Of a DNA stretch of 64,000 nt, positions 52,632-54,358 are shown piece after piece (the stretch's first letter is position 1; the number at the start of each line of letters is the position of its first letter). The position numbers and the translations under genes are program-made. This DNA comes from Microterricola viridarii (GTDB taxonomy: Bacteria > Actinomycetota > Actinomycetes > Actinomycetales > Microbacteriaceae). The stretch is from positions 1,860,001 through 1,924,000 of the forward strand of contig NZ_LT629742.1 in NCBI RefSeq assembly GCF_900104895.1, written 5' to 3'. The notes under the pieces were generated by a model. That model did not search any database, had not been told where the DNA came from, and saw only the letters and a list, made by a program, of their open reading frames with translations.

Positions 52632-53189
52632 TCAGACGCCGTACTCCTCGCGCACCGTCTCGCGCAGCTGCTCGCTGCACGCGGCCACGGTGGCGCGCCA
52701 ATCCGTGATGGCGCCGTCCTTCGCGCGGTCGGAGACGGACTTGAGCACGCGGATCGGCACGCCGAACTGATTGGCCACCCAGATGTACGCGTACGTCTCC
52801 ATGTCGACGAGCCCGGCGCCGAGCGGGAGGATGACGCCGACGGCCTCCTCGTCGTCGACGAAGTGGTCGCCGGTCGCGATCGTGATGCCCTCGCGGCCGG
52901 TCTCGACGCGGGCCGGCAGGGACACGTGCTGCCCCACGATCCCGTCGACATCGGTGACGTCGTGCTGGATGGCGGCATCCACGTCGTACACCCTGGACGT
53001 GAGGAGGGGGTTGATCGCGCCCGCGGTGCCGACCACGAGGATCTCGTCGTAGTCGCCGGCGTCCAGCGCACGGGTCAGCGCGAAGGTCGCCTGCAGCTTG
53101 CCCGGGCCGGTGACCAAGCGGTCGAAGCCCGGGAGCTCGGCGGGGAATGCGGTCAGTTCGGCCTCGAGGGCGGCAACAAGAAGTTTCAC
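52632..53189 (-). CDS. MTA/SAH nucleosidase-like protein
   Basis: A 185-residue member of the nucleoside phosphorylase/nucleosidase fold. Motifs are VVGTAGAIN (early glycine turn), HVSLPARVETG, GLVDMETYAYIWVANQFGVP (the family's VDME that binds the ribose hydroxyls) and LKSVSDRAKDG (SD loop whose Asp protonates the base). It is shorter than classical MTA/SAH nucleosidases (about 230), so the substrate may differ, for example futalosine or another nucleoside. The GTG 53189 start has GACAAT six bases upstream, a possible weak leaderless box. Its upstream neighbour is the tRNA-Arg repeat array. Confidence 0.82.
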   Translation of the reverse strand: MKLLVAALEAELTAFPAELPGFDRLVTGPGKLQATFALTRALDAGDYDEILVVGTAGAINPLLTSRVYDVDAAIQHDVTDVDGIVGQHVSLPARVETGREGITIATGDHFVDDEEAVGVILPLGAGLVDMETYAYIWVANQFGVPIRVLKSVSDRAKDGAITDWRATVAACSEQLRETVREEYGV

Positions 53190-53248
53190 GCTTCCATTGT
53201 CGCCTGACTGAGTGAAGTGCCACCGCGAAAGGGTTTCAGAGGCGTGCC

Positions 53249-53581
53249 CCCCCCGGCAGGATTCGAACCTGCGACCAAGAGATGAGAAGCACCGCGGGTG
53301 GGCGGTTCAGAGGGTGCCCCCGGCAGGATTCGAACCTGCGACCAAGAGATGAGAAGCACCGCGGGTAGGCGGTTCAGAGGGTGCCCCCGGCAGGATTCGA
53401 ACCTGCGACCAAGAGATGAGAAGCGCCGCGGGTAGGTGGTGTCAGTGGTGCCCCGGCAGGATTCGAACCTGCGACCAAGAGATGAGAAGCACCGCGGGTA
53501 GGTGGTGTCAGTGGTGCCCCCGGCAGGATTCGAACCTGCGACCAAGAGATGAGAAGCACCGCGTGTGGGGGTTGTGAGGGG
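53249..53581 (-). repeat. tandem array of five tRNA-Arg 3'-half repeats
   Basis: Five 66-67-bp units (conserved CCGGCAGG starts at 53253, 53320, 53387, 53453 and 53520 on the plus strand) follow the intact tRNA-Arg gene at the same period. Each unit contains about 41 bp identical or nearly identical to the tRNA from the anticodon loop through the T-arm to the 3' acceptor strand. A 26-27-bp linker (with ACCGCGGGTAGG) replaces the 5' half. In each unit GGTGC before the T-arm can pair with GCACC at its end. A degraded linker follows the last unit. No integrase is nearby. Confidence 0.9.
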
Positions 53582-53654
53582 TGCCCCCGGCAGGATTCGA
53601 ACCTGCGACCAAGAGATTAGAAGGCTCCTGCTCTATCCCCTGAGCTACGGAGGC
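53582..53654 (-). tRNA. tRNA-Arg(UCU)
   Basis: A 73-nt cloverleaf on the minus strand: acceptor GCCTCCG/CGGGGGC, D-arm GCTC/GAGC, anticodon loop CTTCTAA (anticodon TCT) and T-arm GCAGG-TTCGAAT-CCTGC. The CCA end is not encoded. The anticodon stem GGAGC/TCTCT has a C31-U39 mismatch at the closing pair. It is the 5'-most element of the tandem 3'-half array and is divergent from orn. Confidence 0.9.
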
Positions 53655-53724
53655 GCACCATGACTACGATACCGCAGCAGCCTCGGCGCAATTGCAAGCG
53701 GGGGAGGGTGTCGGTTCGCCTCGG

Positions 53725-53730
53725 TAGACT
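53725..53730 (+). promoter_or_regulatory. -10 box, leaderless start of orn
   Basis: TAGACT, seven bases, then ATG 53738. Confidence 0.55.
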
Positions 53731-53737
53731 CAAGCCC

Positions 53738-54358
53738 ATGACGAATGCGAGCGACCGTCTGGTCTGGATCGACTGTGAAATGACGGGCCTCGATCTCGAG
53801 GTCGACGAACTGGTAGAGATTGCGGTGGTGATCACCGACTACGACCTGAAGGCCGTGGACGAGGGTTTCAGTATCGTGATCAAGCCCGACGACTCTGCGA
53901 TGGAGTCGATGAACGATTTCGTGCGCAACATGCACACCACCTCGGGGTTGATTGAGGAGATTCCGCAGGGCGTGAGCGTCGCGGAGGCCGAGTATCAGGT
54001 GCTGGAGTACGTGCTCAAGCACGTTCCCACCGAGCAGAAGGCTCCGCTGGCCGGCAACACCATCGGCACCGACCGGGCGTTCTTGGCCAAATTCATGCCG
54101 CGCCTGGATGGACACCTCCACTACCGCAACGTCGACGTCTCCTCAATCAAGGAACTTTCGCGCCGTTGGTTCCCCCGGGTGTACTTCAACGCGCCGAAAA
54201 AGGACGGTGGACACCGGGCTTTGGCAGATATTTTGGAATCAATTCGAGAGCTGGAATATTACCGACGCGCCGTGTTTGTCGCGGATCCTGGGCCCACGAC
54301 GGAGCAGGTGCAGGCGGTGTCGGCGAGCGTTGTGTCCGATTTCGCTCCGCGGATGTAA
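53738..54358 (+). CDS. orn: oligoribonuclease
   Basis: A 206-residue DEDDh 3'-5' exoribonuclease that degrades 2-5-nt RNAs and pGpG. Catalytic motifs are WIDCEMTGLD (Asp-Glu), GNTIGTDRAFLAKFM (Asp) and GGHRALADILESI (His-Asp). Length and motif order match Orn. The position between tRNA-Arg and tRNA-His resembles other actinobacteria, where orn adjoins hisT. A longer in-frame reading upstream overlaps the tRNA-Arg promoter and is not family-like. Confidence 0.96.
   Translation: MTNASDRLVWIDCEMTGLDLEVDELVEIAVVITDYDLKAVDEGFSIVIKPDDSAMESMNDFVRNMHTTSGLIEEIPQGVSVAEAEYQVLEYVLKHVPTEQKAPLAGNTIGTDRAFLAKFMPRLDGHLHYRNVDVSSIKELSRRWFPRVYFNAPKKDGGHRALADILESIRELEYYRRAVFVADPGPTTEQVQAVSASVVSDFAPRM

Follow-up and report, generated by a model that had tools for sequence, protein, structure and literature searches.

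The window, that is the whole stretch of 64,000 nucleotides of Microterricola viridarii which was analysed, carries an intact tRNA-Arg(UCU) gene on its reverse strand at 53580..53654 (-), with the anticodon loop CTTCTAA, and behind it a head-to-tail series of five truncated copies of this gene, each running from the anticodon loop to the 3' end. On the same strand (-), unit 1 lies at 53513..53556, unit 2 at 53447..53489 (its acceptor strand is one G short), unit 3 at 53380..53423, unit 4 at 53313..53356 and unit 5, the distal one, at 53244..53289 (its acceptor strand has three extra G). A linker of 23 bp, also on the minus strand, precedes each of them: linker 1 at 53557..53579 and linkers 2-5 at 53490-53512, 53424-53446, 53357-53379 and 53290-53312. 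The first part of the linkers is variable and their end is GCGGTG, except ahead of unit 3, where it is GCGGCG. At about 53221-53240 (-), a distal linker remnant deprived of any tRNA part can be recognised by eye; it resembles, again by eye, one linker type of M. pindariensis.

Tandem Repeats Finder calls the array, without strand, at 53250..53623, with a period of 67, 5.6 copies, 93% match and a score of 616, and the loop nucleotide C32 of units 1-5 falls at 53556, 53489, 53423, 53356 and 53289. Chance is excluded as the origin of such a series. The five truncated copies behind the intact gene and their spacing of 66-67 bp, both reported in the initial annotation, are thus confirmed, the spacing by the loop positions and by the repeat call. 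The array extends about 28 bp beyond the start proposed there. The GGTGC which it placed at the linker end is present before four of the five units, unit 3 having GGCGC in front, and the T-arm, said to be kept in every unit, is indeed represented by an identical 17-mer in 5/5. It overlooked the fact that all five units carry C in place of A at position 37 of the anticodon loop (CTTCTCATC in the units, CTTCTAATC in the tRNA).

Downstream lies a codirectional gene of the phosphorylase superfamily (PF01048; 52632..53189, -), and the divergent neighbour on the other side is an orn-like exonuclease gene (PF00929; 53738..54355, +), whose product matches its M. pindariensis counterpart at 100% identity. 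A DNA search of the genome found neither a second copy of the array nor a second tRNA-Arg(UCU); it returned two longer matches, which are the tRNA-Arg CCG and ACG, and one match of 21 bp. Among the five Microterricola genomes, arrays were found by pattern in three (G000, G002, G004), while G003 and G001 each have a single unit, that of G003 showing T39C and a broken T-stem and that of G001 being partly decayed. The array of M. pindariensis has seven units, against five in the window, with two linker types which largely alternate. Since unit numbers and linkers differ in this way, both are turned over within the genus, and what persists is GGTGCTTCTCA and the 3' half.

Recurrence of the arrays and the nucleotide at position 37

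Relatives of the locus were found with the orn-like gene as anchor, which gave 80 orn-linked loci of Microbacteriaceae. The tRNA-Arg(UCU) lies upstream of orn in either orientation in these loci, and no tRNA-Arg(UCU) was called in the fetched stretches of Curtobacterium. Copies behind the tRNA-Arg are present in four loci (L004, L015, L028 and L030, the tRNA of the last being interrupted by a run of N), and the edge of L081 gives a weak match. A tRNA-Arg was called at 59 of the 80 loci; CTTCTCA or GGTGCTTCTC occurs at most 160 nt downstream of it only in three array loci, and no pre-duplication state was found within these 160 nt of the 59 loci.

We also searched 398 genomes of the family with patterns, the sampled genomes being one per species; true arrays were told from false matches by eye, and some of the genomes counted below were not opened. 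A pattern tied to GCTTCTCATC has matches in 18 of the 398 genomes, belonging to 8 of 85 genera. Another pattern, which demands two T-loops nearer to each other than a whole tRNA gene, matches in 59 of the 398, including false matches such as ileS codons and ordinary tandem tRNA genes. By reading both lists, we count truncated-tRNA arrays in about 46 of the 398 genomes, or 48 with G001 and G003; arrays of tRNA-Arg(UCU) are present in 30 (28 by pattern, plus the same two genomes), from nine genera.

Beyond the family, 296 genomes of the phylum, 396 of the order and 394 of the class were searched, in samples which overlap. By reading, arrays exist in Actinomycetota behind the tRNAs for Lys, Thr, Arg(CCU), Met, Val, Ser, His, Leu, Trp and Phe. 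The phylum, order and class samples contributed Arg(CCU), Leu, Met, Trp, Ser, Val, a distant Arg(UCU), another Arg(UCU) and Phe, as well as Thr(UGU) arrays in two further families, again by reading. The Thr (G379) and Lys (G995) arrays of the order sample belong to the window's own family, and most other matches of the order and class samples were false by reading. The longest array among the 43 loci analysed unit by unit is L132 (G239), with eight near-identical units of 70 bp behind a tRNA-Ser(GGA); its anticodon loop is not kept.

The substitution at position 37 is not peculiar to the window. We considered the ten lineages in which the tRNA has U36-A37 and the units have a kept loop (at least 5 of its 7 bases), namely three groups of Arg-UCU, Arg-CCU, two genera for Lys, Met, and three families for Thr: in 10/10 of them, base 37 is changed from A to C in every such unit, and every other loop position is changed at most once among the ten representatives. 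For Met (L161), A37 was taken from the junction copy beside the unit and not from the resident gene, which was not seen. The first and last chain members of L159 have no kept loop, and L168, behind Ser(GCU), a U36-A37 tRNA, was not counted, its loop (4/7) not being kept. Assuming one random change each, an agreement on one position and one base over five tRNA identities has a probability of about 5e-6; lineages within one order may share descent, hence this figure is based on the five tRNA identities only.

Outside these lineages, the loop is not kept in the Ser and Leu arrays, Val(UAC) has A35->C instead, with A37 retained in its first unit, the Phe units retain A37, and in a His unit of G201 the loop is complete. 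The loop TA is changed to TC in 11/11 lineages when Val is included. In view of the Val, Phe and His cases, the rule can be read either as bearing on U36-A37 or as a change of UA to UC in the loop. Since the GCTTCTCATC pattern demands a C, the search made with it is blind to A37. TAA at the place of the loop, sought in the close T-loop pairs of all fetched loci, gave one match only, in L165, within what is apparently a whole second tRNA gene partly masked by a run of N, and no A37 unit was seen by eye in the matched strings without locus from the wider family, phylum, order and class patterns.

Transfer RNAs with U36-A37 typically carry t6A37. We would guess that an intact UAA loop puts a copy at a disadvantage, by making it a substrate either of integrases or of the t6A synthase; neither idea explains the choice of C over the other bases. 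Four other causes were considered. A reverse-transcribed tRNA misread at t6A37 is rejected, mainly on the grounds that the units are devoid of an added CCA (they have, for example, GCACTTT ends), that Phe has A37 and that a His loop is intact; the changes of A58, seen in 5 of 84 units, say little on this point, because most arrays were found with a pattern demanding A58. An avoidance of UA as an RNA-stability signal is not supported beyond the poverty of these genomes in TA: 37 linkers contain 5 TA, against 18.8 in base shuffles and 7.2 in random windows of the same loci (P 0.28). A role of C37 in a linker hairpin is rejected as a general cause, the change from C to A weakening the predicted fold in only 4 of 28 cases (L104, L030, L098, L178). 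Finally, selection on an open reading frame through TCA is rejected, the three frames being open in 41, 42 and 39 of 49 units. As for A58 itself, the tRNA-Thr arrays L209 and L212 have second units with A58->C in the T-loop.

That the same base is changed in separate lineages points to a selective force at tRNA 3' ends, for which integrase avoidance, titration of a modification enzyme or an RNA function are candidates that could be tested with a single base. Recurrence, together with one fixed base change, suggests an unrecognised class of repeats and not a one-off accident.

Decay of the units and fate of the paired stems

Chains of one to eight units were obtained at 41 of the 43 loci (not at L182 and L224), with steps mostly of 51-103 bp. 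L159 has two short steps between units, and a step of 121 bp in L226 was a miscall, the script having taken the wrong tRNA, so that L226 was dropped from the recount. Each unit keeps about 36-44 nt of the tRNA, anticodon loop included, and the linkers measure about 11-60 bp among those read. Where genera differ, the units track the resident tRNA, for example with GGCCGCAGG in L028 and GGTCACAGG in L110, and GGTGCTTCTCA is common to the units of eight genera of Microbacteriaceae. The T-arm of the downstream unit in L224 is paired and differs at several positions from that of the resident tRNA-Arg, as if the unit kept an older allele of the gene.

The initial annotation had suggested that the units may be transcribed and folded as small T-arm RNAs acting as decoys, closed by a stem between the GGTGC of the linker and the GCACC of the 3' end. 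The linker pentamer is GGTGC in 79 of 98 unit strings, which are redundant across overlapping loci and relatives, and the tRNA end is GCACN in nearly all of these. The pair does not covary across relatives: the linker pentamer does not follow the tRNA end. In distant Arg lineages whose tRNA ends in GCGC, the linker has GAGAC, CCGAC or CCAGC, which leaves 1-2 of 5 pairs, and in the genus g51 (and in L154 of g56) it has GACCC or GAGCC, again with 1-2 of 5 pairs; L109 retains 4-5 pairs via wobble, and in G274 GGTGC sits one base further out and was not counted by the script. A pair which is conserved without covariation is also what common descent produces, and the compensated minihelix was rejected.

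The T-stem leads to the same reading. Over 40 loci and 84 units, 36 of 420 cells are changed, of which 28 break a pair and one is compensated on both sides; counted as distinct changes per locus, there are 25, namely 19 broken pairs, 5 kept by a one-sided change and one by changes on both sides. The broken set includes one Ser change which recurs in related loci, and indels (L137, L166). Moreover, in the 19 arrays with at least two units, the divergence of the last unit exceeds the median of the others in 13 cases, falls below it in one and equals it in 5 (P 0.002), the sole array with a less diverged last unit being L137, by reason of an indel. Several arrays terminate, by eye, in a bare copy of the linker, which is what one would expect of plain tandem duplication, and L099, L107, L137 and L152 have no such bare linker. 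The initial annotation had itself named mutated T-arm and linker stems as evidence against its decoy RNAs, and this is largely what the relatives show.

The absence of covariation, the broken T-stem pairs and the decay of the distal units are better accounted for by tandem duplication and homogenisation than by a structured RNA. Hence, we consider that the array is rather probably a tandem satellite made of truncated copies of the neighbouring tRNA, which were duplicated and homogenised by recombination and of which the distal one is decaying. A tandem duplication of the 3' part of the tRNA, from the anticodon loop to the 3' end, together with a short flank, would start the array; recombination among the copies, and with the 3' half of the tRNA itself, would then expand, shrink and homogenise it, and the copy farthest from the tRNA would escape homogenisation and decay. 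Such a distal decay matches unequal exchange in tandem arrays, the tRNA gene being the constrained proximal edge. Unit number and linker order vary between close relatives and the 3' halves are near-identical to the resident tRNA, both in favour of duplication; copy number is unequal among relatives, the repeats are homogenised and their edge decays, as in a satellite. Further points in its favour are the recurrence behind at least ten other tRNA isoacceptors, A37->C in all ten lineages considered and the elements located at the A37 copy in G004 and L244-L246. Against neutral duplication alone stand the same A37->C behind five tRNA identities and GGTGCTTCTCA in eight genera. By eye, the linker looks convincingly like a degenerate 5' half of the tRNA in L154 and L170; this was rejected by shuffles, as 28 alignments with 500 shuffles each gave one p below 0.05 (0.042) and one of 0.052.

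Integrases and elements at the array loci

Bacterial mobile DNA commonly docks at the 3' ends of tRNAs. In G004, about 17 kb separate the array from the 5' part of the tRNA-Arg(UCU). The insertion between them (in L191:1-19301) contains a tyrosine integrase (P0001, PF00589, at 1473-2327) and its own tRNA-Arg(UCU) (L191:2343-2418), and is flanked by the 15-bp core TAATCTCTTGGTCGC (junctions in L183 and L189, core in L191), which means that the host tRNA was split and not rebuilt. The short core, the host tRNA left without reconstruction and an element tRNA of the same isotype are the marks of tRNA-dependent lysogeny, of which this insertion is, as judged from its sequence, a likely case in Microterricola. 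Similarly, in the viral contigs L244, L245 and L246, an open reading frame with a PF00589 integrase ends about 75 bp ahead of an A37 Lys 3' half, which is followed by C37 units. Thus in 4/4 opened loci bearing an integrase (G004, L244-L246) the element is at the A37 copy, with the units beyond it; it precedes the array and does not lie between units.

The suggestion, made in the initial annotation, that repeated integration and excision could leave such traces therefore stands in part: elements with tyrosine integrases do use the site in relatives (G004 and the Lys loci), and the left end of the array unit itself was found on no element. In its full form, each unit would be a former attR, left after an internal deletion had removed its element, C37 being the base of the element at the edge of the core. 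We regard this as unlikely, even though the arrays are at tRNA genes used by tyrosine recombinases, C37 could be the core-site base of one integrase family, and the blocks of identity are like the common cores of 30-45 bp described for mycobacteriophages in the part of PMC10865867 available to us. No full element with the end of a unit turned up: at the 18 loci that we opened, each from a different genome matched by the GCTTCTCATC pattern, the units are at most about 110 bp from a tRNA, another unit, an A37 junction (L113) or a contig end (L114). With patterns on viral contigs, an element ended by C37 was found in 0 contigs for Arg and in 0 for a Thr pattern; a wider pattern gave 11 contigs, which are the three Lys arrays and eight other tRNA-like sequences, none of the eight being a clear attP with C37. 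The attP of the Rhodococcus phage Mbo4 is without TTCTC, and in 21 array genomes exact copies of the linker end occur only at the arrays, among the matches listed. At the loci analysed unit by unit, neither an element nor its remains with an integrase was found between tRNA and copy, the units following the tRNA or one another at steps mostly of 51-103 bp, and no known element was found whose att core gives the sequence of the copy, C37 included. The four integrase-bearing insertions have A37 at the junction, and the linkers are all short, unlike what random deletion would leave. As no element was found with the left end of a unit, plain attachment-site remnants are not demonstrated.

Under the preferred reading, by duplication and homogenisation, the array would sit behind a tRNA gene targeted by integrases and be under their pressure, and the convergent A37->C would leave the copies seemingly unused by tyrosine-integrase elements.

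Comparison with described systems

The closest described kind is that of the enterobacterial RtT or tyrT-tyrV repeats (Rfam RF00391, rttR, tpr), which are likewise tandem repeats right behind tRNA genes and include the tRNA 3' end. In E. coli MG1655, the repeats are 178 bp apart, when here the steps are mostly of 51-103 bp, and in E. coli they keep, by eye, about 19 nt of the tRNA 3' end, when the present arrays keep about 36-44 nt, the anticodon loop and C37. The covariance model of RF00391 has no match in 53150-53740 of the window at E values up to 1, and none at gathering score in L110, L132, L137, L212, L216, L170 and L151; the positive control L231, the tyrT-tyrV stretch of MG1655, gave four matches. 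The part of PMC9897764 which was available deals with fragments of tRNAs that mobile elements leave behind or that lie within a CRISPR array, and has the word "tandem" only in its reference list. The attR fragments described there share with our units a 3' part of a tRNA beside an integrase target site; they differ in that our units are head-to-tail, mostly 51-103 bp apart, with no element between them and with base 37 changed. The prophages of tRNA-dependent lysogeny, as presented in the accessible part of PMC10865867, use the same class of target, the anticodon region of the host tRNA, which the G004 insertion fits; they are the elements themselves and not arrays. By title or abstract opening, we found in the literature no description of arrays of such kind, nor of a selective force like those considered above, subscription papers being mostly outside the scope of this search.

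A wider reading, to which we give a rather small probability, is that of a widespread unnamed tandem class derived from tRNAs, in which U36-A37 became U36-C37 repeatedly behind tRNAs for ANN codons, and which would act either as an RtT-like RNA without t6A site or as att-like decoys made of DNA.

The first of these roles, taken by itself, would make the units a functional transcribed counterpart of RtT: small RNAs released by tRNA processing would serve as decoys or sponges, and C37 would block t6A or codon pairing. The units are codirectional with the tRNA, a simple scan, which may miss actinobacterial types, found no terminator-like site in 53100-53800, C37 is convergent across tRNA identities and the linker end is shared in Microbacteriaceae. 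There is also the precedent of RtT: PMC4986893, with reference to a paper of 1991, reports that its RNA is released and that it affects the stringent response. Against these points, GGTGC/GCACC does not covary, the T-stem is not maintained, the fold depends on C37 in only 4 of 28 linkers, the distal units decay and the distribution is patchy, with about 48 genomes out of 398 in the richest family sampled; we therefore hold such a function to be improbable, and the folded T-arm decoy of the initial annotation is not supported. The other role, in which the host would keep att-like 3' halves with a dead overlap base as decoys shielding its single-copy tRNA from integrases, is very improbable: the 15-bp core of the G004 insertion (TAATCTCTTGGTCGC) covers the place of C37, which also belongs to the region of the anticodon loop commonly occupied by the cores of mycobacteriophages (according to the part of PMC10865867 consulted), but the A37 copy is still entered by an element in at least four array-bearing loci and arrays exist also without a kept loop (Ser, Leu).

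Finally we must note that these arrays are a trap for annotation, as the copies create spurious open reading frames and an apparent element junction can be called as a tRNA. In the window, a spurious-looking open reading frame of 119 aa crosses the array at 53186-53545 (-) in shifting frames (SSLGRRFESCRG, LLISWSQVRILPGA, HLLVAGSNPAGG), and in L161 ARAGORN calls a tRNA-Met at an apparent element junction with a foreign 5' part.
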